DNA from: a virus
IMG/VR virus record: IMGVR_UViG_3300023104_000003
Span: 1 to 39,075 of that record
Direction: 5' to 3' (one strand)
DNA length: 39,075 nt
Part shown: positions 3,833 through 39,075 of the stretch, piece after piece
How the letters are laid out: each line of letters begins with the position of its first letter
Position numbering within the stretch: position 1 is the first letter of the stretch
Notes under the pieces: model-generated
The model's input: only the letters and a program-made list of their open reading frames with translations
What the model was told of the DNA's origin: nothing
Databases searched by the model: none
Translations under genes and position numbers: made by a program

Positions 3833-4512
3833 GTTGTATAGATTGGCGTGTTTGTGATTGATATAGTAGCGTTTCCACTAGGTTGACCTATTAATTCAAA
3901 AATATTTTGATCGAATGGGAAGCCTTCTGATAGTATTTGAGATCCATCCCCTTCCGTTTCGCTTGATGAATTGTAATATTTACCGATAGATGCCGAATAT
4001 ATTATTAAGCTTTCAGATTCAGGAGTTACCGTAAAATTTTCGTTTATCTTAAAACTATTAGTACCTGAAGAATCAATTGTTTGGGCTAAAAATATTGGCT
4101 CATCCCCTTCAACTCCCACCAAAACAACCTCAATATCTCCAGTACCTAAACCATCAATAACATTAGTTCGGTAATCATATCTGCCAATGCTACCATCATT
4201 CGTATAAACCGACCAAACAGGTTTACTAGGTATAACAGTATCTCCTTGATCGTTCGTACGCCCCACTAAAGATACCATACCATCTACTATATCTGATTCA
4301 GGAATAGTAAAGGAACGGTAAAGGGTGCTTGATCCACCATCAGCAATTAAGGCTTTAACTTGCCCCATGTATGGTATCTGCAAATCATCTGTTAACTCAA
4401 AAGGCTGATCGTATTTAAGTAAATTTAAAACTTGTATATCTGATTGGCTATCGGGATGCCTTAACATCATAACCATTAGCATTCTTAGTATTTCGTCTCT
4501 CGTTGGATTCAT
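3829..4512 (-). CDS. Tail-associated protein, 227 aa, unknown
   Basis: A short amphipathic N-terminus (DEILRMLMVMMLRHPDS) precedes a beta-rich body with many Gly, Thr and Ser. It lies between the collar-domain protein and the signal-peptide fibre and overlaps the latter by ATGA. The N-terminal helix with a beta C-terminus fits a fibre or baseplate adaptor. I do not recognise a named family. Confidence 0.7.
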   Translation of the reverse strand: MNPTRDEILRMLMVMMLRHPDSQSDIQVLNLLKYDQPFELTDDLQIPYMGQVKALIADGGSSTLYRSFTIPESDIVDGMVSLVGRTNDQGDTVIPSKPVWSVYTNDGSIGRYDYRTNVIDGLGTGDIEVVLVGVEGDEPIFLAQTIDSSGTNSFKINENFTVTPESESLIIYSASIGKYYNSSSETEGDGSQILSEGFPFDQNIFELIGQPSGNATISITNTPIYTT

Positions 4513-4514
4513 GG

Positions 4515-6116
4515 TTAAGCTATTTTAATTACGTAAACACAAACCAAACTTAAAGGCGTAAAAGGCAATGGAGTTCCAGAACCTAAATTAGCTGTTTTGC
4601 CTGTCTGTATTGGGTCATTGAACCCAACGCCCCCAACATTAGTTAAAGGTCTTCCAGAACCACCACCAACACGCCAAGATGATTCATTTGATTGACTAAC
4701 CATAATATCTACACCTTCTGCAGGTAAATTAACCTTGCCTATCGTTATGGTTGCGCTACCTTTATCAGTTCCTATCGTTATCGCATCTGCCCTATCCCAT
4801 CCAATCGGAAGCTTACCATCCATATTAGGCGTTCCGTTTGTCCCTGCTATTGCCCAATCTCTCCAAAGGCCATTACTTAGACCTAATCCAGTAGCTAAAT
4901 CGAAAGCATTAACTAAATCGCCTGCCTGAATCTCAAAGAAGAATACACCTGCGTTTTTAGCCAGATTCGGAGCAGGAAGAATAGGTAAAGGAATTGGAGC
5001 TTCATCCATTTGCTTCCATAACAGAAACAACATGCTTGCGTTTAGTCCTGCTCCACTAAAATAAACAGTTTCTGTGCCATCAAAAGCATAGCTAACATCT
5101 ATCGTATTTTTAGTTTCGTCAACATTCCAATTTGATACTATTTCTCCACCGTTGGGAGTAACACCGATACTCATTATAAAATCAATACCACTTTTATAAA
5201 GCACAATTTTCTCTAAAATTGAAAACGCTTTAAAAATGCCAGATGCGTTAAAAGCATTTGCGACACTTATATATCTTGTTACTTTTTGCACGGCTGTTAT
5301 TGTTTGTGTTAGTGACCCATCTGGCTCTGTATTATATCTTATAAATTCATTTGCTGCTGGCTCAATATCAATATTATATTCCCAAATAAAGGCGTAATCA
5401 GGATTAGGCTCTACTTCAGGTTCGGCTTCAGCAGCTATTTGATAATAAATACCATCGTAACTGATTTGATCGCATTGAGAAATGATATTGTATTTATCAA
5501 CTACCCAATTAGGTACCCCTTGCTGTCTCGTTCCTATTGTAAATGTAAACCTACGATATGCGACAGATGATAATTGGGTGTTGTTATGTTTTTGATCTAT
5601 AAAGCCATTACGGTCATTTTGTGGCCTGTAATTATGAATAGATGCGTGTAATCTAATTTGAAATTCAATACCAGTATCGAATACGCTTGAAAAATCATTG
5701 CGACTATTTTTATATTTAATCAGTAATGTTTCATCATCAAAGTCTTTAACCTCGAAAGGTTCTGAACCAAAATCTCCAAATATAGCTTCGTAAACTCCGT
5801 TAGGTAGGTTACTAAATGGATATGATAATTCGTAACAAATAAGATCAGGATATTCTAGAAACTGCAAATTCTTAGCTTGCCATGTTGCGGTATCAATTAC
5901 ATTTCCGTATTGATCTCTAAATTCTAAATCGTTTGGTACTTCATCAGCTACAACCTGTAGATATAAAATATCTGATTTTAACCACGTTTGAAAGTAACAA
6001 GCCGTTGTTTGATACCAGTTAAGCAAGTTAACATAATAGTTACCATCAAAACCTTTATTTAGGTTTGCATTGTCGATAAACCTTAACGGGTTGATGTCAG
6101 CTACTTGTATGCTCAT
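4515..6116 (-). CDS. Tail-tip/collar-domain protein, 533 aa
   Basis: The N-terminal two thirds are beta-rich with no recognised motif. The C-terminal 110 residues carry the signs of a tail-collar domain: KLPIGWDRAD, then ITIGKVNLPAEG, and a terminal PFTPLSLVCVYVIKIA that matches the usual PPY..L.YIIK ending. Collar domains cap fibres and often contact receptors. A TAnnTTTG box lies just upstream, so this gene may start the tail-fibre unit. The stop is 2 bp from the next ATG. Confidence 0.75.
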   Translation of the reverse strand: MSIQVADINPLRFIDNANLNKGFDGNYYVNLLNWYQTTACYFQTWLKSDILYLQVVADEVPNDLEFRDQYGNVIDTATWQAKNLQFLEYPDLICYELSYPFSNLPNGVYEAIFGDFGSEPFEVKDFDDETLLIKYKNSRNDFSSVFDTGIEFQIRLHASIHNYRPQNDRNGFIDQKHNNTQLSSVAYRRFTFTIGTRQQGVPNWVVDKYNIISQCDQISYDGIYYQIAAEAEPEVEPNPDYAFIWEYNIDIEPAANEFIRYNTEPDGSLTQTITAVQKVTRYISVANAFNASGIFKAFSILEKIVLYKSGIDFIMSIGVTPNGGEIVSNWNVDETKNTIDVSYAFDGTETVYFSGAGLNASMLFLLWKQMDEAPIPLPILPAPNLAKNAGVFFFEIQAGDLVNAFDLATGLGLSNGLWRDWAIAGTNGTPNMDGKLPIGWDRADAITIGTDKGSATITIGKVNLPAEGVDIMVSQSNESSWRVGGGSGRPLTNVGGVGFNDPIQTGKTANLGSGTPLPFTPLSLVCVYVIKIA

Positions 6117-12640: not shown

Positions 12641-13093
12641 TTAACTAAATTTTAAACCTGTAATCCCTGTTATATAATTTCTGATTTCTGGCATAACCGT
12701 TTCTAATGCAAATCTTTCTTTACTATCCATAGTTAAGCCAAATATTTTATTGGTGTATTTCCTCTCTAAATGCCCTGTTTTCATATCGGTTGATCCGAAA
12801 ATAATTGTTGTTCCTGCTTTTACTTGTGCATAAAATCCACGCTGAAATGCCCCTGTAAGAAATAAATCGGGATTAAATAGCCCTGGCGATGGATTAATTC
12901 GGTTTTTGTCCAAAGCATAAGCAGGCGATTGATAAGGCGATAATTTTAAACTATTGCTATCAACACCTCGATTGTATAATTGCTTCCTATTCAAATCTGC
13001 AGCTACTTCACTATTACGCTGAATAATTACAGGTATTTCCGCTTCAAGGTTAACCCGTTTCAGTTTTTCAAGCATTCCGAATATTGTTGACAT
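12641..13093 (-). CDS. Tail/neck completion-type protein, 150 aa
   Basis: The pattern LNRKQLYNRGVDSNSLKLSPY, then PDLFLTGAFQRGF and KIFGLT, is one I associate with a small structural protein of Bacteroidota siphoviruses that plays a tail-completion or minor-tail role. An N-terminal helix is followed by a beta domain. It lies between the ParB-like cassette and the tape measure and is followed at 1 bp by the 54-aa gene. The structural role is inferred. Confidence 0.65.
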   Translation of the reverse strand: MSTIFGMLEKLKRVNLEAEIPVIIQRNSEVAADLNRKQLYNRGVDSNSLKLSPYQSPAYALDKNRINPSPGLFNPDLFLTGAFQRGFYAQVKAGTTIIFGSTDMKTGHLERKYTNKIFGLTMDSKERFALETVMPEIRNYITGITGLKFS

Positions 13094-15582: not shown

Positions 15583-16146
15583 CTATTTAGGGCAGAATGA
15601 TTTATTAATCTTTAATTTCAAATTGTTAATCTCAATCGCATCAACCCAATCGTTGAAAATGTTTTTATCGTTTCCGTACAAACCAGATTTGCCCCAGTAA
15701 TATCGATTCGTTACCCTGTGTGGTATATCAGTTCTGCTAACTCCAGAAAACAAATCGCCTCTTAATCTGATCTCATCTAACAAAGCCATATAAATAGGTG
15801 TTAGAACAGGAATAAAATTAAACTCGTCTCTTTCTTTAGCTGTCTGATTCGGATCTTTACACGCTCTTATAATGGCTATATTGATACTTTGCTCTCCGTA
15901 AAATTGCGGATCGGTTCTGTCAACTGTGCTATCTAAAAAGAATGCTACTAAAGGGTATTTATCGAATGGAGTTGTTACACCATTATCGAAATTACCTAAA
16001 GTTTTTATTATCTCTAAAGGATGTCCGTATTGATAATGAACGCCTGTTATTTCTTCGTCTACAAGTTTAAGTGATGGTAATAATCTTGCGCTTACTGCAT
16101 CAACTATGTATTGAAACTCACGATGTAAATAAAATGGCTGTATCAT
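15583..16146 (-). CDS. Probable tail terminator/neck protein, 187 aa
   Basis: It overlaps the upstream connector gene by 4 bp (ATGA) and precedes the tail tube. The segments KYPLVAFFLDS, then NIAIIRACKDPNQTAKERD and PVLTPIYMALLDEI, resemble tail terminators, which cap the tail and join it to the head. No catalytic motif was seen. The call is from gene order and general appearance. Confidence 0.65.
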   Translation of the reverse strand: MIQPFYLHREFQYIVDAVSARLLPSLKLVDEEITGVHYQYGHPLEIIKTLGNFDNGVTTPFDKYPLVAFFLDSTVDRTDPQFYGEQSINIAIIRACKDPNQTAKERDEFNFIPVLTPIYMALLDEIRLRGDLFSGVSRTDIPHRVTNRYYWGKSGLYGNDKNIFNDWVDAIEINNLKLKINKSFCPK

Positions 16147-23755: not shown

Positions 23756-24130
23756 TTATTTCGTTAGTAGCTGATTTTCTGGAACCGGTATTTCTATTCC
23801 CACGCATTCCCAAAAATCATTATAACTCCTGGCTATCCGGTATTCGTGACCAATCAATTTACATAATGATTGAAATTTAATCTGATCTGGTGATTGATGT
23901 CCTTCTTCGGTTTTCAATTCAATCCATGTTATTTTGCCATTATCATTCATGTAAGCCCAATCTGATATACCTGGCTTAACTCCCATAGTACGCATCTTGT
24001 TACCGTACTGTTTTGATTGTGCGTTTGTCCATATACAGAACAACCTTTGCTTTTCAGGATGATCGTATAAATGAACTCTATTCCATGCTTCAGATATTTT
24101 TTGGTGCAATATTTCTTCTTTTCTGTTCAT
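23756..24130 (-). CDS. VRR-NUC family nuclease, 124 aa
   Basis: The small nuclease core is visible: GVKPGISDWAYM with Asp57, WIELKTEEGHQSPDQIKFQ with Glu71 and Lys73, then Gln84. VRR-NUC proteins are stand-alone PD-(D/E)XK nucleases, often cutting branched DNA such as Holliday junctions. Here it is next to the likely origin and the helicases. It may resolve replication or packaging intermediates. Its size is normal for phage members. Confidence 0.85.
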   Translation of the reverse strand: MNRKEEILHQKISEAWNRVHLYDHPEKQRLFCIWTNAQSKQYGNKMRTMGVKPGISDWAYMNDNGKITWIELKTEEGHQSPDQIKFQSLCKLIGHEYRIARSYNDFWECVGIEIPVPENQLLTK

Positions 24131-24131
24131 T

Positions 24132-24515
24132 TTATTGAGTTCTGAATATCCTTGTTAATCCGTCTTCGCATTCTTTTATTCTAAACCTACTATTGGTGTA
24201 ATACTTAGATTGAATAATTAAAGCTTTATTTTCTTTGGTATCATCGCATTCAAAACTTTCATTTGGCTGCATCGATAGTAGTAGTTCTTTGTTTAAAATT
24301 GGTTTTTGCTTTATAAAATCATAATACCTTTTCTTACCGTCTGATTTTTTAACCAATTCAAACCCTTTTTTCTTAGCCTCTATAAACAACATTTTAGTTA
24401 TTTTTTGCTTAGACGCGTTTTCACCTATCTCGTTTATAAAAGACTTCTGCATATCATCAATAGAAATCTTTTTAAAGTTGAATATTGATAAGAATATATT
24501 AAATTGTGTTTCCAT
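24132..24515 (-). CDS. Hypothetical protein beside the origin, 127 aa
   Basis: Helical N-terminal half with basic stretches (SFINEIGENASKQKITKMLFI, then KKSDGKKRYYDFI) that could be a winged helix, followed by an acidic linker and a C-terminal RFRIKECEDGLTRIF. It is the first gene beside the GGGCA cluster. Binding to that cluster is a reasonable guess, but no known initiator family is recognised. Confidence 0.6.
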   Translation of the reverse strand: METQFNIFLSIFNFKKISIDDMQKSFINEIGENASKQKITKMLFIEAKKKGFELVKKSDGKKRYYDFIKQKPILNKELLLSMQPNESFECDDTKENKALIIQSKYYTNSRFRIKECEDGLTRIFRTQ

Positions 24516-24589
24516 TCTATAAAGTTACTAAAAATATTACCGAATATCAATATTTAGTAAGTTGTTTTGTAATGTGTTTTTATTAATTA

Positions 24590-24895
24590 GGGCAGGAAAA
24601 CAATATAAATTTGCTAATTAGGGCAGGAAAAATTCAATTTAGGGCAGATAAAAAATAGCTAAGTGCCCTGTATTTTCTTGCTTTAAATATATTTAAATGT
24701 ACTTAGGGCACTTAGGGCACTATAATTTGTATAATTTTGTGTGTATTGTTTTTATAATACTTGAATATAAATATTATTTTATATTACCTTTTTTTCCTGC
24801 CCTACCTGCCCTTTCTTTGTTTAAACCATATTCAAGGCTGTTTTTACGGGGCAAGTACGTTTTTTTAAGTGCCCTGAACGTGCCCTTTTAGGGCA
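24590..24895. repeat. Putative replication origin: 12 GGGCA/TGCCC repeats around an AT-rich core
   Basis: In a 386-bp gene-free stretch (24516-24901) GGGCA occurs at 24590, 24621, 24642, 24706, 24715, 24849 and 24891, and TGCCC at 24664, 24798, 24807, 24870 and 24881. Most extend to TTAGGGCA, and several to TTAGGGCAGGAAAA. Six lie on each side of an AT-only-like stretch (24720-24786). Twelve copies of a GC-rich pentamer in AT-rich DNA is far from chance, and the layout resembles iterons with an unwinding element. The D5-type helicase gene ends at one edge. Confidence 0.65.
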
Positions 24896-24901
24896 GGAAA
24901 A

Positions 24902-26293
24902 TTAAAAATAAAACATCCTTATGCCGTTACTTTTGCCATCTTTGAATGGTATTTTATGAAAATCTACGTAATGAGCAACGTATTTATAGAACGTTTTTGA
25001 TGCTATTTTTGATGTAGGATTTTCTAATCTGAACTTATTAAAGAACTCAACACGATTAATCATACCTCCTGATTCTGGTTTATAATCTTCCATAAATTCA
25101 ATAAATTCATGTGAAGTTTCGGCTATCAATCTTTTCTCTGGTAGGTTAATTAGTTCTTGTTTTACCAATCCATTTTTTAAATAAAACATACAGCAATCAA
25201 TCATGAAATAATCAAATTCATTCCATTCTTTAATGTCCCAATCATGAAACATCATTTTACCAAATTCATCGTATGGCGTTTTTGATTTATTATAATACTG
25301 TGCTATCTCTAATTCGTGCCGGCGGCGTTCATGACTATTGCCTGTGCCTTTAATAGCATAGTTCGTAGTTATAACGACTTTTGGGGCATCTTCAAAAGGT
25401 ATTAGCATACTATCCTTGCCTTTCTTTTCTACATCTATACCATCTGTTAAAACAGAAAATAAACGCTCAAAATCAAATGTTTTGTTAACATCCTGGAATG
25501 AAAGTATTTTAGTATCTGGATTAACTCTTTGATAAACAAAATTCTTATCAAAGCTAAATGTTTTGCCTTCTATGGTAACTGTATTTAAAAATTGCTCTAC
25601 AGCCTTAAGCAATAATCCCTTACCTGTTCCGCCTTCTGGATGATCGGAAATAACCTCATCATTTAGAATTATAGCAGGGCTGTATGCAGGATTTTTGAAA
25701 TTATGAAGTAGATACCCTAAAGTAGAGCAAATTGTCTTATATCTCATTTCCGTTTGATTTGATATATTCCAACAGAACACTTTAAAGTCGCTTCCGGGGG
25801 TAGACTTATCATTAAAATTCCTCTGTATAATCTGGCTTTCCCAAATATAACCAGTAAGAGAAGTATAAGGAAATGTTTTTACTCCTTCGGTTGTAACCTT
25901 AACGATGCAGTTTTGGAAATACATTTGCATGGAATCCTTACGATCTTTTTTGAATATCACCTCTTTTGCAGGTAATGTTTCTAAAAATTCATCATTAACA
26001 CATTTTCCGATGTTTTTTAAAAAGAACTCATAAATATGTTGCGGTTCTTCAGTTTTAACAAATTCTAATATTTCATCTTTTAAATCTTTTTTTCCTACTT
26101 CTCGGACTATATTATCTATAATCCTTATGTATATATGTTTGTTAATCGAAGTTCTAAAGAGATAATATCCTCTTGTAGTTAAAAATCCAGCCAGATCGAT
26201 GTAGTTAAATTCCCATCCTCCGTTAGATTTTGGTCTCCATAATGTAAAGTGGGCAAAACTTCTTTGCGCCGCCAAGTGTACCAGGTTAAGCAT
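24902..26293 (-). CDS. D5-type/SF3 primase-helicase, 463 aa
   Basis: The C-terminal half has Walker A GGTGKG (in HPEGGTGKGLLLKAVEQF, near residue 225) and motif ILSFQDVNKTFDFERL, then PKVVITTNYAIKGTGNSHERRR, which fits the C-terminal box of viral D5/SF3-type helicases (DUF5906-like). It would unwind DNA at the origin. The N-terminal half shows no clear primase motif, and a separate primase is encoded upstream. The start overlaps the SF2 helicase gene by 8 bp. Confidence 0.8.
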   Translation of the reverse strand: MLNLVHLAAQRSFAHFTLWRPKSNGGWEFNYIDLAGFLTTRGYYLFRTSINKHIYIRIIDNIVREVGKKDLKDEILEFVKTEEPQHIYEFFLKNIGKCVNDEFLETLPAKEVIFKKDRKDSMQMYFQNCIVKVTTEGVKTFPYTSLTGYIWESQIIQRNFNDKSTPGSDFKVFCWNISNQTEMRYKTICSTLGYLLHNFKNPAYSPAIILNDEVISDHPEGGTGKGLLLKAVEQFLNTVTIEGKTFSFDKNFVYQRVNPDTKILSFQDVNKTFDFERLFSVLTDGIDVEKKGKDSMLIPFEDAPKVVITTNYAIKGTGNSHERRRHELEIAQYYNKSKTPYDEFGKMMFHDWDIKEWNEFDYFMIDCCMFYLKNGLVKQELINLPEKRLIAETSHEFIEFMEDYKPESGGMINRVEFFNKFRLENPTSKIASKTFYKYVAHYVDFHKIPFKDGKSNGIRMFYF

Positions 26294-27692
26294 ATTTTTG
26301 AATTAAGTGTTTAAGTAAATAAGGTCTTAGTTCCCATCCGGCATCGTTATATAATTTAGGTAAAGCAACGCTTATCATTTCCTTTTTTTCGGTGGGGTCT
26401 AAAGATAATCTTTTAATTTTTGATATGGTATTTTCAATAGCTATTTCAAGTGCTGGTTGTGAATTTTTTTTTATTGGTTTATCAGGCATGATATTTAATT
26501 CAATCATCATATCTGTATAAACTATTTCGCGCGGCATTTCATGACCGCAAACATAGCATTTTGTAGCTGCCATGTAAATCATAGCCTGACATTCAGGGCA
26601 ATCCTTCATTGGCGCCGCTCCTTCGCCGGATTTGTCAGGATGTAAAAAGTATTGTTCCCAATCATGATGTTGATCCCAATATCCATGCCCTTCGCCTTGA
26701 ATATTATCCCCTAAATCTATAGCTAGCCAAAACTCCTTATTTGAGTAAGTTCTCGCCCCCCTGCCTAAACATTGTAGCCATAAAGGCAATGATTTAGTTG
26801 ATCGATTGAAAATTACTGCTTCAATTGTAGGTTCGTCAAATCCAGCGGTAAGTATACCAACGTTATTTAATATAGCATCTGGAGTATTTTTAAACCATGA
26901 AAGCGTTTCTTTTCGTTCTTCTGCACTACTCGATTTACTGTCGAGAAAACGGCTGTTATATCCATGATCTTTAAAGCAATTATGAACTAAAATTGAATGC
27001 TCAATAGTTGTATTAAAAACGATGGTCTTTTTACTTTTGCATAGTTTTTCGTACCAATGAACAACTGCGTCTATCAACTTAGGTTTAGAAAACTCCTGGG
27101 CCATAGATGCCATATTATATTCACCGGCTGTTTTCTTCATTGCCTTTTTATCAACTCCTGTTTTTGGTGCGTAATGAATGCAGGGAGTTAAGTTATTCCT
27201 TTCAATCAATTGCTTTATGGCAAGGCCGGCCACGATAGTTTCATAATCTGTTTTTAGTGGGTGTTTTTTAGTTGCGCTTATCGGAGTAGCTGTAAAGCCT
27301 ATAATAATTGTGTTGTTATCTCGGTAATGATCGAAAACCTTTTTAAAATTACCCACATGACATTCATCAATTATGAGTAGATCATATTCTGAAACCCCAT
27401 GTTTTTTTATTTGGTTACAGAATGTTTCTACCATTTGAACCTTAATGTGATTTATTCCGAACGCAAATAAAGTTCTTTGAGTTTGTGTAACCAATTCATC
27501 CCTGTGAACAACGATAGTTATTTTTGCTGAAATATGTCGGGCTAAATATCTTTGGATTAAGTAAGACATAACAACTGTTTTACCTCCTCCCGTAGCTAAT
27601 TGCACGAGTATAGATTTATAATTATTTGCTATCTTTCTTGCGATATTATTAACCAATTCTAATTGGTAATCGTGAGGTTTAATTTCTGTCAT
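26286..27692 (-). CDS. SF2 DEAD/DEAH-type helicase, 468 aa
   Basis: Motifs in order: Walker A ATGGGKT (33-39), DECH box (109-112), FTATP (motif III) near residue 134, and QCLGRGAR (motif VI) near 315. Residues about 365-385 form a CxxC...CxxC zinc finger (CPECQAMIYMAATKCYVCG). It belongs to the UvrB/RecG-like SF2 group found in phages (as in T4 UvsW-type and similar). It may remodel forks or restart replication. It overlaps the primase gene by 14 bp. Confidence 0.88.
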   Translation of the reverse strand: MTEIKPHDYQLELVNNIARKIANNYKSILVQLATGGGKTVVMSYLIQRYLARHISAKITIVVHRDELVTQTQRTLFAFGINHIKVQMVETFCNQIKKHGVSEYDLLIIDECHVGNFKKVFDHYRDNNTIIIGFTATPISATKKHPLKTDYETIVAGLAIKQLIERNNLTPCIHYAPKTGVDKKAMKKTAGEYNMASMAQEFSKPKLIDAVVHWYEKLCKSKKTIVFNTTIEHSILVHNCFKDHGYNSRFLDSKSSSAEERKETLSWFKNTPDAILNNVGILTAGFDEPTIEAVIFNRSTKSLPLWLQCLGRGARTYSNKEFWLAIDLGDNIQGEGHGYWDQHHDWEQYFLHPDKSGEGAAPMKDCPECQAMIYMAATKCYVCGHEMPREIVYTDMMIELNIMPDKPIKKNSQPALEIAIENTISKIKRLSLDPTEKKEMISVALPKLYNDAGWELRPYLLKHLIQKYA

Positions 27693-28641
27693 ATAGTTTG
27701 TTTTCTAAAATGTAATCGCATAGATCATATCCTTTTTCGTATTCCCCACGCAATCCATGTACTTCAAAATTTGTCTCTTTCATTAATTCATTCATTTGAT
27801 TTGCTTTTTCAATCCACAAATGTTCGGCTCCCACGTCCGGGTAAAGTAAAACGTTTCTGCCTTTAAGAACCTGGCAACGTTGGTATGTTAAATAAGATAA
27901 TGATCCTGAAGCCAGCCAAATTAAATCAGGATAACATATTGATGCTAAAATAGCTGTCTTTTCGCTTTCAACTATTCCAACTTTTTTATTAGGATATTTA
28001 GGTAATAAGTACTCGCCGAATAAGCAAACTTTAAGCGTGAAATCTTTTATTTTTAGCATTTTATGTACCCATGTAACTAAAGGCTTAGGCTCTTTAATCC
28101 TTTTACCATTTACTGGGTTATATTGCATTATCTTTCCAGAACAAACTCGATTATCAACATCTAAATACCAAAATACAACGGAGCCAAACCATCTTTTATT
28201 TGAAGTGCTTGTTATGTATTCGTGCTTTTTATCTGTTAAAGATTTAAGCCATAAATCAAAATTATTATGATGTGTAGATTTTAATGATTTATTTAAAAGT
28301 TCTGCAGAAAGGTAGTCGGGTTCTGGCTCAATAAATTGTTGATATTCGTAATCTTTATCTATTGTAATATTTTCAAAACCTGCAATCCATTCTAAAGCTT
28401 CTTTATATTTAAAGCCTTTATAGTTGATAACGAAATCAATTGAATCGCCAGAGGCACCACAGCCAAAGCATTTATATTTTTGACGTTGTGAGTTTACGAT
28501 AAATGAATTTGATTTTTCCAAATGGAATGGACATTTACCTTTGAAGTTTACTCCATCTTTTTTTATATCGATGAAATGGGAAACTATTTTAATGATATCG
28601 GATTTTTCTTTAACCGATTTTATTTCAGAAATATTACTCAT
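27679..28641 (-). CDS. CHC2 zinc-finger DNA primase, 320 aa
   Basis: The zinc finger is Cys37, His40, Cys58, Cys61 (CPFH and CFGC), followed by the TOPRIM-like part (GIVESEKTAILA near residue 230, and LLYPDVGAEHL near 278). It makes RNA primers. The TOPRIM motif DxD is reduced to a single clear aspartate, as in some phage relatives. It precedes both helicases in one overlapping unit and follows a structured leader (28648-28731). Confidence 0.85.
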   Translation of the reverse strand: MSNISEIKSVKEKSDIIKIVSHFIDIKKDGVNFKGKCPFHLEKSNSFIVNSQRQKYKCFGCGASGDSIDFVINYKGFKYKEALEWIAGFENITIDKDYEYQQFIEPEPDYLSAELLNKSLKSTHHNNFDLWLKSLTDKKHEYITSTSNKRWFGSVVFWYLDVDNRVCSGKIMQYNPVNGKRIKEPKPLVTWVHKMLKIKDFTLKVCLFGEYLLPKYPNKKVGIVESEKTAILASICYPDLIWLASGSLSYLTYQRCQVLKGRNVLLYPDVGAEHLWIEKANQMNELMKETNFEVHGLRGEYEKGYDLCDYILENKLYDRN

Positions 28642-29440: not shown

Positions 29441-29590
29441 TTATGTATGCAATTTTTTTAACCTTTCTCTTTCTTGTTTTAAAATCTCTCTAGTTTTTGT
29501 GTCTATACACTGCGACCACATAAATGATATTAGCCAATTAACATAATCAAATGTCTCTTTGCTAACAGGCTTATTGCTAATATGCTCCAT
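29441..29590 (-). CDS. Small helical protein, 49 aa
   Basis: The ATG (29590-29588) lies inside the end of the methyltransferase gene in another frame. It ends 9 bp before the next ATG. Helical with a Trp-rich middle (FDYVNWLISFMWSQ) and a Lys/Arg-rich end (KQERERLKKLHT). Function unknown. Confidence 0.55.
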   Translation of the reverse strand: MEHISNKPVSKETFDYVNWLISFMWSQCIDTKTREILKQERERLKKLHT

Positions 29591-30347
29591 TTAATCTTGT
29601 TTTTGATATAAAAACAGCTTTATCGCTTAAATCACAACCTATAAAACTTCTATTAAGTTCCTGACATGCTTTAGCGGTTGTTCCGCTACCCATATAATAA
29701 TCAGCAACTATATCACCTTCATTTGTTGAACATAAAATCAATCTTTTTATTAGTTCTTTTGGTTTTTGGGTTCTATAGCTAATCATTCTTCTTTCATTAC
29801 TACTTGGCGGAAGAAAAGGTATATCTACCCATACGTCATTTTGAGGTACTCCTTTTTTTTCTATTACTAAATATTTTTCATTATTTTTAAACCTATGCAA
29901 TTTATTTTTTTTCCTTTCTTTGCTCCCCTTTGTGTATTCTATGTATTGAGTATTAAAAGTATAAGCACTTGTTTTAGTATACCTCAATATACAGTCGTGA
30001 AGCCTTTGAAAATCTTTACTATTACATGTCCATCTTTTATAGTGCCATATTATTGTGTTCCTATAGTTTTCTATACCGAAAACTTCGTCCATTATACACC
30101 TTATCCAATGATTTATTTTTTCATCCATTTGTAGATATATTGTGCCACTTTTTTTTAAAACCCTTTTCATTTCGATTATTCTTGGAAAATAATGATCATA
30201 TATATCATTCTTTATTAATTTTATGTCTTTGAAATCTCCAAAATCTCTGCCTGTTCCATAAAGTATATCGCAATAAATCATATCTATACATTCATCATCC
30301 ATAGAATTCATCAATTCTAAATTGTCACAACATTTTATTTCTATCAT
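29577..30347 (-). CDS. DNA methyltransferase (N6A/N4C beta-type), 256 aa, odd catalytic motif
   Basis: Circularly ordered as in beta-class enzymes: the catalytic region comes first, with DILYGTGRDF (residues 27-36) in the place of DPPYxTG, and motif I near the end, DYYMGSGTTAKACQELN followed by GCDLS. RTQKPKELI is the usual preceding box. DILY lacks the double Pro. It may still be active in this phage family, or be altered. Likely role: masking phage DNA from host restriction. Confidence 0.85.
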   Translation of the reverse strand: MIEIKCCDNLELMNSMDDECIDMIYCDILYGTGRDFGDFKDIKLIKNDIYDHYFPRIIEMKRVLKKSGTIYLQMDEKINHWIRCIMDEVFGIENYRNTIIWHYKRWTCNSKDFQRLHDCILRYTKTSAYTFNTQYIEYTKGSKERKKNKLHRFKNNEKYLVIEKKGVPQNDVWVDIPFLPPSSNERRMISYRTQKPKELIKRLILCSTNEGDIVADYYMGSGTTAKACQELNRSFIGCDLSDKAVFISKTRLNGAY

Positions 30348-30712: not shown

Positions 30713-30802
30713 TTAATTTTTAGTTGTTTTATCAATTCGTTTTAGTTTAAACTTTACTTTATGGCAGTAGCCGAGGTAGAAGGTGACACCGATGTTAATC
30801 AT
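30713..30802 (-). CDS. Very small basic protein, 29 aa
   Basis: ATG at 30802 overlaps the preceding stop (ATGATTAA); TAA 3-4 bp before the next ATG. Sequence MINIGVTFYLGYCHKVKF then Lys/Arg-rich. The fit between two genes argues for translation. Confidence 0.45.
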   Translation of the reverse strand: MINIGVTFYLGYCHKVKFKLKRIDKTTKN

Positions 30803-31151
30803 AGTGTGTCATTCTTTTTACGCTAATCACCTTTTGCTTAAATGCTTTATTTGTTAAGTACAAATCATCAAAAGTTTTCTTAGAGTAAATAATAGTTGAA
30901 TGGTGCTGATTAAAAATTCGCCCAACAGTTTTTAGTGTTAATTTTGGATATGCTTCGTAAATCAAACCAATAGCTATTTGCCTCGCTTCTACAAATTCAC
31001 GCTTTCTGCTATTTCCTTTAATAAATTTTGCTTCTATGTTTAGAACAGCAGATACGCTATCTATTATTCCCTCTGTAGATGCTATTTTAATTCCATGTGT
31101 AAAATCGTGTTTTACATTCTGCGGTAATCCTACAAATATTTGTGCTGTCAT
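30795..31151 (-). CDS. Stand-alone DnaA domain-IV-like DNA-binding protein, 118 aa
   Basis: Residues about 30-115 follow the DnaA C-terminal domain: VSAVLNIEAKFIKGNSRKRE, ARQIAIGLIYEAYPKLTLKT, then VGRIFNQHHSTIIYSKKTF, equal to the GxxFgrDHSTVxxAxxxi box that reads DnaA boxes. No ATPase part is present. It could guide host DnaA to the phage origin, compete with it, or act as a repressor. Confidence 0.8.
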   Translation of the reverse strand: MTAQIFVGLPQNVKHDFTHGIKIASTEGIIDSVSAVLNIEAKFIKGNSRKREFVEARQIAIGLIYEAYPKLTLKTVGRIFNQHHSTIIYSKKTFDDLYLTNKAFKQKVISVKRMTHYD

Positions 31152-33268: not shown

Positions 33269-33958
33269 TTAATTGCAGGACCGCACCTTTATATTTTTGC
33301 TTTTTTGTAACAAGTACGCTACAGTTTGTTCTGCTATTGCTTTTGCAATTCCTGGATAAGTTTTAGATCTTAATTCTGCTCTGTTTTTAGATGGAGGTAA
33401 TAAATGCAATTTCTGTTCCCTGCCTTCAACTATATTAGTTGGAATTATAGGAGGTAGGTTTTTATTCCATAAACAAGTTGCCTTCGTTTCTCCATGACCA
33501 AACATCCACGGTTGCAAAACATTATCTGGCTTTCTCCACCGGCTCGATAAAACGCCAATAGGGTTTTCGATTCTTATATATTCAATATCTGAATTATATA
33601 AATCCAATACAAATTTAATTGCTTTTTCTCTTGCTTCTCTTCTTTCTGCGCCAACTAAAGTTCCGCTTTTACGATCCGGCTGATCTTTATACCATTTATT
33701 AGCTGAAACTGTTAAGTAAGTGCATTCAGGATGAAATATTGCAACATCCCATTTACCTACATTTATTTCGTTTCCGTCTTGCATAATTAACTTACCACCT
33801 TTTATTGCTTCAAAAACATCGCCTTGAAAATGCCTTTCCGTATAGCCGCCTGAACAAGGTTTTAAATCGCAACTTATTGCTTCATGGCCCAATTTTAAAA
33901 AAGCCTTCATTACTTCCTGGCTTTCCTCGCAACCGATTAATACTTTTAGTTTTTTCAT
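33269..33958 (-). CDS. C5-methyltransferase-like protein, 229 aa
   Basis: Recognisable as the short phage protein annotated as DNA cytosine methyltransferase: VLIGCEESQEVMKAF (SAM site), FHPECTYLTVSANKWY with HPEC at 76-79, IRIENPIGVLSSRW (ENP), then QPWMFGHGETKATCLW. Long enzymes have PCQ; here the Cys is in HPECTYL. Activity is uncertain and it may act on nucleotides or RNA. Overlaps the upstream 89-aa gene by 4 bp. Confidence 0.7.
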   Translation of the reverse strand: MKKLKVLIGCEESQEVMKAFLKLGHEAISCDLKPCSGGYTERHFQGDVFEAIKGGKLIMQDGNEINVGKWDVAIFHPECTYLTVSANKWYKDQPDRKSGTLVGAERREAREKAIKFVLDLYNSDIEYIRIENPIGVLSSRWRKPDNVLQPWMFGHGETKATCLWNKNLPPIIPTNIVEGREQKLHLLPPSKNRAELRSKTYPGIAKAIAEQTVAYLLQKSKNIKVRSCN

Positions 33959-38837: not shown

Positions 38838-39075
38838 TTAAACAGTTTCTTTTATAAACATCGATTTAGCTAAATTAGTTTCTTGTTCATTCGCTTCATG
38901 AATTTCCATAAGGCAATCAACAACAGACATTAAACCTAAAAATGTTTTTTCTTCTTTACTTAAGTATCGTTTTATAAATCCTTTACTAAAAGCTTCCTCT
39001 ATCAATGCTAATTCTTCAAATGAATACCCTGTTGATTTAGCTTGAATTATAGAATCAACCGTTCTTTGTTTTTCT
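38838..39075 (-). CDS. Hypothetical protein, 3' part of the junction-spanning gene
   Basis: Continues the frame of 363-1. Bases 39075-38949 duplicate the contig start; the unique part is 38948-38838 (KTFLGLMSVVDCLMEIHEAN and on to MFIKETV, then TAA). Helical, acidic. Function unknown. Confidence 0.8.
   Translation of the reverse strand, partial: EKQRTVDSIIQAKSTGYSFEELALIEEAFSKGFIKRYLSKEEKTFLGLMSVVDCLMEIHEANEQETNLAKSMFIKETV
38949..39075. repeat. Terminal direct repeat, 127 bp, identical to bases 1-127
   Basis: All 127 bases equal the contig start. 127 is a common maximum assembly k-mer, so it is most likely an assembly overlap that marks a circular or circularly permuted genome, rather than a physical terminal repeat. 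Confidence 0.95.

Follow-up and report, generated by a model that had tools for sequence, protein, structure and literature searches.

Genes and features at the locus

The window, i.e. the whole stretch of viral DNA that was analysed (39,075 nucleotides), carries a direct terminal repeat of 127 bp, which makes it probable that the genome is complete, with 38,948 unique bases. It encodes a terminase large subunit, a portal protein, and the major head and tail proteins. The record names no host; judging by the relatives identified among phages and in cellular genomes, the hosts are probably Bacteroidota.

The region of interest (24587–24896) lies between the gene for a D5-type helicase and the gene for the small protein P0001, with the helicase stop codon 6 bp from the first iteron, a placement that was the same in the relatives. 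The features of the region, together with the neighbouring replication genes, are listed in Table 1.

Table 1. Features of the putative origin, the surrounding replication genes and other elements of the window
Feature	Position	Strand	Description
Direct terminal repeat, 127 bp	1–127 and 38949–39075		
VRR_NUC-type nuclease	23756–24130	−	Across the origin from the helicase
P0001, 127 aa, no family	24132–24515	−	Residues 4–73 resemble the TTACAAA-class helicase tail domain
D5-distal outer iterons	24587–24669		GGGCA at 24590, 24621, 24642 (+) and 24664 (−)
TTTAAATATATTTAAA element	24682–24697		Between the outer iterons and the inner pair
Inner tandem iteron pair AGGGCACTTAGGGCA	24705–24719	+	GGGCA at 24706 and 24715; 9-bp period
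A+T-rich core	24720–24797		78 bp, 85 % A+T; presumed melting site
Inner tandem iteron pair TGCCCTACCTGCCCT	24798–24812	−	TGCCC at 24798 and 24807; 9-bp period; mirror image of the AGGGCACTTAGGGCA pair
D5-proximal outer iterons	24849–24896		GGGCA at 24849, 24891 (+) and 24870, 24881 (−)
D5-type SF3 helicase (DUF5906), 463 aa	24902–26293	−	Proposed self-loading initiator; Pfam DUF5906, E 4e-6
Helicase winged-helix tail, codons 395–463	24905–25111	−	Proposed reader of the GGGCA word (model and word-class matching)
SF2 helicase	26286–27692	−	Replication cluster
CHC2 zinc-finger/DUF6371 primase	27679–28641	−	Likely priming partner
DNA methyltransferases, two genes	29577–30347 and 33269–33958	−	Early region
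P0006, small protein	30795–31151	−	DnaA domain-IV helix–turn–helix without the ATPase; Bac_DnaA_C, E 3e-15

Clustering and composition of the repeats

Seven copies of GGGCA and five of TGCCC were present within 306 bp (24590–24895), six on each side of the stretch 24720–24786, as the initial annotation had stated. That stretch, which it had described as almost pure A/T, was indeed AT-rich but contained 59 A+T among 67 positions (88 %). The cluster was also correctly placed in gene-free DNA, a gap of 386 bp (24516–24901), although gaps of that size occurred at several places in the window. GGGCA was counted 42 times on both strands of the whole window against an expectation of 39 ± 6, and the word therefore showed no overall enrichment. 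The signal was, as had been argued, the density and not the motif alone: 12 of the 42 sites fell inside the 306 bp, whereas random placement of 42 sites gave a maximum of seven per 306 bp in 20,000 trials. When the clustering of all words was computed across the window, GGGCA and AGGGCA were the most clustered 5-mer and 6-mer. The longer form TTAGGGCAG occurred five times, four times in the cluster and once at 15587, where an isolated copy had already been noted, and TTAGGGCAGGAAAA was found in three copies in the cluster. As a search probe against IMG/VR this 14-mer was uninformative, giving at least 120 single chance matches.

The computed layout of the region was symmetric, with outer iterons and inward-facing tandem pairs on both sides of the A+T-rich core. 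A second TTTAAA was located at 24820, on the opposite side of the core from the TTTAAATATATTTAAA element. Such TTTAAA elements outside the inner pairs were seen in many relatives across word classes (21 in 15 origins, compared with 8.3 expected). The cores of most relatives, representing several word classes (e.g. L126, L131, L135 and L137), carried a CACGCGTAAAATATATAAAA-like sequence adjoining the D5-distal inner pair. The CACGCGTAAAATATATA-like core sequence of most relatives was degenerate in the window, which was counted against the interpretation as an origin.

The region gave no match in Rfam and no promoter or terminator signals above chance. DnaA boxes (TTATNCACA) did not form a cluster in 24400–25000, where one site with one mismatch was present; the sole exact box was at position 12825. 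A Rep_3/RepA-type initiator domain was absent among the ten replication-region proteins scanned, and the iterons lay in the gene-free gap rather than inside the coding sequence of an initiator, as is the case in origins of the lambdoid O type. The GC-skew curve, proposed earlier as a check, had no switch at 24590–24895, a test that was uninformative because nearly all genes of the window sit on one strand.

Relatives retain the layout but not the word

Close relatives of the helicase were present in IMG/VR. The comparison of layouts covered the short-helicase relatives whose contigs extended far enough 3′ of the helicase gene, and in these the same order was computed directly 3′ of the gene: outer repeats, an inward tandem pair, an AT-rich core, the mirror pair and further outer repeats. 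The period of the inner pairs was 9 bp (8 bp in L152), and the core measured 55–84 bp in relatives with both pairs strict. A geometry scan that accepted any hexamer recovered the layout in 30 of 285 loci, several of these 30 being repeat fetches of one contig, compared with one of 855 shuffled loci.

The repeated word itself was variable. AGGGCA or GGGGCA was used in the window, L126, L130, L143, L131, L136 and L139, TTACAAA in L127, L133, L134, L135, L137, L138 and L149, CTGACA in L129 and L150, and TGACRC words in L152 (TGACGC) and L154 (TGACAC). A GGGCA cluster was thus lacking in the close relatives L127 and L129, but the same layout was present there with a different word, and the helicase tail had changed too. 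In L129 the origin is separated from the helicase gene by an inserted GIY-YIG endonuclease gene (4457–4822; Pfam E 2.4e-7), which overlaps the first iterons with its 3′ end.

Beyond this group, the scan identified a GTGACA word in L220 from about 1767 (Pseudopedobacter bin), 3′ of a more distant D5 helicase. A similar inner-pair layout with the word GTTGTGAA, recognized by eye, occurs in L242 from 7336 (Ulvibacterium bin), also 3′ of a more distant D5 helicase. On the 3′ side of a distant helicase, Bacteroides phage BT-TP2 (L283 3838–4432) has a weak GGTTACAA cluster of GGTTAC(A/G)AA words, which might represent a further word class. No clear repeat cluster was seen in MW202828, MT835542 or Polaribacter phage Leef_1, and a set of 400 genomes from the order to which the Pseudopedobacter match belongs yielded distant helicases only, mostly without clear iterons 3′ of the gene. 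The more distant marine primase-helicases of ~800 aa lacked such repeats 3′ of the gene, and the placement of iterons is therefore not a rule for the whole family.

The helicase tail tracks the word

The relationship between word and helicase was analysed for 16 helicases, with one test case (L286) and a plasmid pair in addition. Identity of the helicase body (residues 30–392) was 64 % between word classes and 66 % within them, whereas identity of the tail (residues 393–463) was 13–38 % between and 35–77 % within classes. The word class required five changes on the tree of the body, and monophyly of the GGGCA (G) and TTACAAA (T) classes was rejected (AU p 2e-65 and 1e-102, respectively); on the tail tree it required two changes, the minimum, with both large classes forming single branches (99–100 % support). 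In partial Mantel tests, word and tail were correlated when the body was controlled for (r = 0.836, p 5e-5), compared with r = −0.02 for word and body when the tail was controlled for. The computed match between word class and tail was exact.

The window, L127 and L129 illustrate this, having bodies that are ~79–83 % identical but three tails and three words. In this comparison the VRR_NUC gene beyond the origin was again ~82 % identical to that of the window; in relatives belonging to three different word classes the identity of the nuclease was 81–82 %. L286, which took no part in building the classes, was predicted from its tail to use TTACAAA (115.7 versus 21.9 bits), and its origin contains TTACAA words, although its body is closest to that of a CTGACA phage.

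Since the word class matches the tail and not the body, the tail is the likely reader of the repeats and the helicase would load itself. Together with the analogy to the SaPI/PICI and SCCmec Cch2 proteins, this makes reading by the tail and self-loading the most likely mode of initiation. The tail and the origin word very probably constitute a matched module that has been swapped as a unit among relatives.

Repeat clusters can also be operators or centromeres, and this one is situated upstream of the P0001 gene; the repeats could in principle be regulatory sites without any origin function, for instance operators of a P0001/VRR_NUC promoter, or a site for partition or for packaging. We consider this very unlikely, given that the symmetric layout round the A+T core was kept in relatives with other downstream genes, that the word tracked a domain of the helicase and not a regulator, that promoter and terminator signals did not exceed chance, and that the organisation agrees with published PICI origins.

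Exchange of tail and origin in Salinibacter plasmids

Two Salinibacter ruber plasmids with terminase genes, pSR14 and pSR31, were found in the plasmid collection and encode a related helicase (35 % identity). The two plasmid helicases were ~98–100 % identical over alignment columns 351–750 but only 58 % identical over the last 24 residues, and alignment with the modelled fold assigned the diverged last 22–24 residues to the C-terminal wing. The pSR14 locus (L294 3827–4206) contained nine copies of TGGTCCA and none of TGTCACA, whereas the pSR31 locus (L296 2399–2818) contained 11 copies of TGTCACA and none of TGGTCCA. All of these words fell in the gap that immediately follows the 3′ end of the helicase gene, with the same layout as in the phage origins. 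DNA identity between the plasmids fell from 94 % in the helicase gene to 68 % in its last codons and 64 % in the origin, which places the start of the exchange inside the reader domain.

Because the tail adjoins the origin and one recombination would move both, function and linkage cannot be told apart from the correlation by itself; the plasmid pair, in which divergence runs from the wing onwards into the downstream DNA, fits block inheritance as well. An origin whose match to the tail reflects linkage only, the tail having another job, is nevertheless extremely improbable. From one class to another every copy of the word switches, on either side of the core, while the layout stays constant, and the breakpoint falls within the helicase coding sequence, at the winged helix or its wing, rather than at the gene end. 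The match was also retained through a reassortment of the L286 type, in which a body near class C is joined to a tail and word of class T. Finally, the predicted fold of the tail is a DNA-binding fold, and C-terminal domains of related proteins bind iterons (PMC7581432). Reading of the word by the tail is thus favoured.

P0001 and P0006

The initial annotation had proposed P0001 or P0006 as the cognate initiator. Neither was matched in the loci of the relatives around the helicase (flanks of ~6 kb), where the layout was present, and on this absence both were rejected as a conserved initiator. No relatives of P0001 were found in the phages or viral contigs searched. P0001 did, however, resemble the T-class tails in an HMM search of 2453 ORFs (E 1.2e-5) and in hhalign (E 1.1e-6, probability 91), whereas the tail of the window's own helicase belongs to the GGGCA class. 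Judged from these profile comparisons, P0001 is a stand-alone homologue of the reader domain of another class and not a conserved initiator. It is unlikely to be a recent fossil of an exchanged tail, because it is only ~25 % identical to the T tails and has a C-terminal half of its own. P0001 may serve as an accessory protein that binds the origin, or it may interfere with other phages.

The homology of P0001 to a reader fold and the match of P0006 to Bac_DnaA_C are what would be expected if a separate protein read the iterons and then loaded the helicase. We nevertheless regard such an arrangement as highly improbable: besides the absence of both proteins from the relatives, the region has a lone DnaA-box-like site, P0001 resembles tails of the TTACAAA class and the window has no TTACAAA cluster, and the word class corresponds exactly to the tail of the helicase.

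Structural model and proposed mechanism

An AlphaFold model built from 67 sequences gave a pLDDT of 89.6 for the helicase, replacing an earlier model from 13 sequences in which the ATPase core was poor. Residues 395–463 were modelled as helix, strand, helix, helix, strand, strand, i.e. as a winged helix, with pLDDT block means of 82–95. Foldseek comparison of the whole model retrieved D5-type helicases, namely ASFV PrimPol, mpox E5, vaccinia D5 and the SaPI5 primase-helicase (7om0), of which 7om0 had the most balanced TM-scores (0.58/0.60). At the sequence level, neither profile A1 nor profile A2 retrieved a PDB chain (E 1 and E 10); only the fold comparison gave matches.

Taking the sequence comparisons, the structural model and the analogy to known systems together, we consider it very likely that 24587–24896 is the replication origin of the phage and that the adjacent D5-type helicase acts as initiator by means of its winged-helix tail. 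The earlier suggestion of an iteron-containing replication origin is strongly supported by the relatives, in which position and layout are the same and the word is matched to the helicase tail.

Initiation could then proceed as follows. The C-terminal winged helix (about residues 395–463) of each helicase subunit would bind one (A)GGGCA iteron, and the mirror-image tandem pairs would place an inward-facing hexamer on either side of the A+T core. ATP-driven action of the two hexamers would open the core, and the CHC2/DUF6371 primase would begin synthesis on the exposed strands. The outer iterons may raise the local concentration of helicase or set the frequency of initiation.

Comparison with known systems and implications

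The phage P4 α protein is a self-contained helicase initiator with cognate iterons; unlike the helicase described here, it includes the primase too, and P4 needs two sites, ori and crr. In lambdoid phages the specificity of O protein for ori iterons varies between related phages as matched pairs. The mechanisms of lambdoid O and geminivirus Rep differ from the one proposed here: lambda has its ori within gene O, and its initiator brings in the helicase of the host, whereas geminivirus Rep is a nicking enzyme. Rep–iteron specificity differs among related geminiviruses as matched pairs (PMC12548392), and P4 α and its ori site are mentioned in the description of PICI origins (PMC6092414).

The organisation most resembles that of the SaPI/PICI elements (SaPIbov1, SaPI5 and the E. 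coli PICIs), in which the origin is immediately 3′ of the gene for a Rep/D5 helicase, iterons flank an AT-rich core (in the window, 6 + 6 iterons) and the initiator is an SF3 helicase with a C-terminal DNA-binding domain (PMC6092414, PMC7581432), a domain that is predicted in the present case. The DUF5906 helicase of the window, a putative self-loading initiator, has a modelled fold similar to D5, AsfvPrimPol and SaPI5 Rep (7om0), but no match to the 7om0 structure at the sequence level. In contrast to PICI satellites, which have no structural and packaging genes of their own and parasitise a helper, the carrier is a complete tailed phage in which such genes are present, and the primase is a separate CHC2/DUF6371 protein. 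The present comparison documents inner pairs with a fixed 9-bp period and an exchange of tails among close relatives.

SaPI Rep and SCCmec Cch2 each bind, through a C-terminal domain, iterons directly 3′ of their own gene (PMC7581432). Cch2 is likewise a D5/Primase_Cterm-type helicase, and its isolated C-terminal domain binds the downstream short direct repeats; unlike the window, SCCmec has three AAGTG iterons only, with no flanked symmetric core described, and replication of SCC has not been shown in vivo (PMC7581432). In 2018 the PICI origin organisation was stated to be known in no other bacterial replicon (PMC6092414). Judged against the open-access literature, this kind of origin is already known, and what is new is its presence in complete tailed phages and in phage-plasmids of other phyla, with exchange of tail and word as a unit.

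A more far-reaching reading would treat the tail or wing (the last 20–70 residues) as a specificity code that predicts the origin word and replicon compatibility, with module exchange diversifying phages and phage-plasmids and with P0001 occupying rival TTACAAA-class origins. As a whole this is unlikely. Its specificity-code half is well supported, whereas interference by P0001 at rival origins is speculation.

An organisation deemed special to PICI-type satellites would thereby extend to Salinibacter phage-plasmids and to complete tailed phages whose hosts are probably Bacteroidota, and the DUF5906 helicases of this group gain a likely role as initiators. In related genomes, inward-facing 9-bp pairs directly 3′ of a short D5 helicase gene would help in finding origins. 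The natural near-isogenic sets (pSR14/pSR31, and the window with L127 and L129) would make the specificity of initiator for origin addressable by swapping 20–70 residues.
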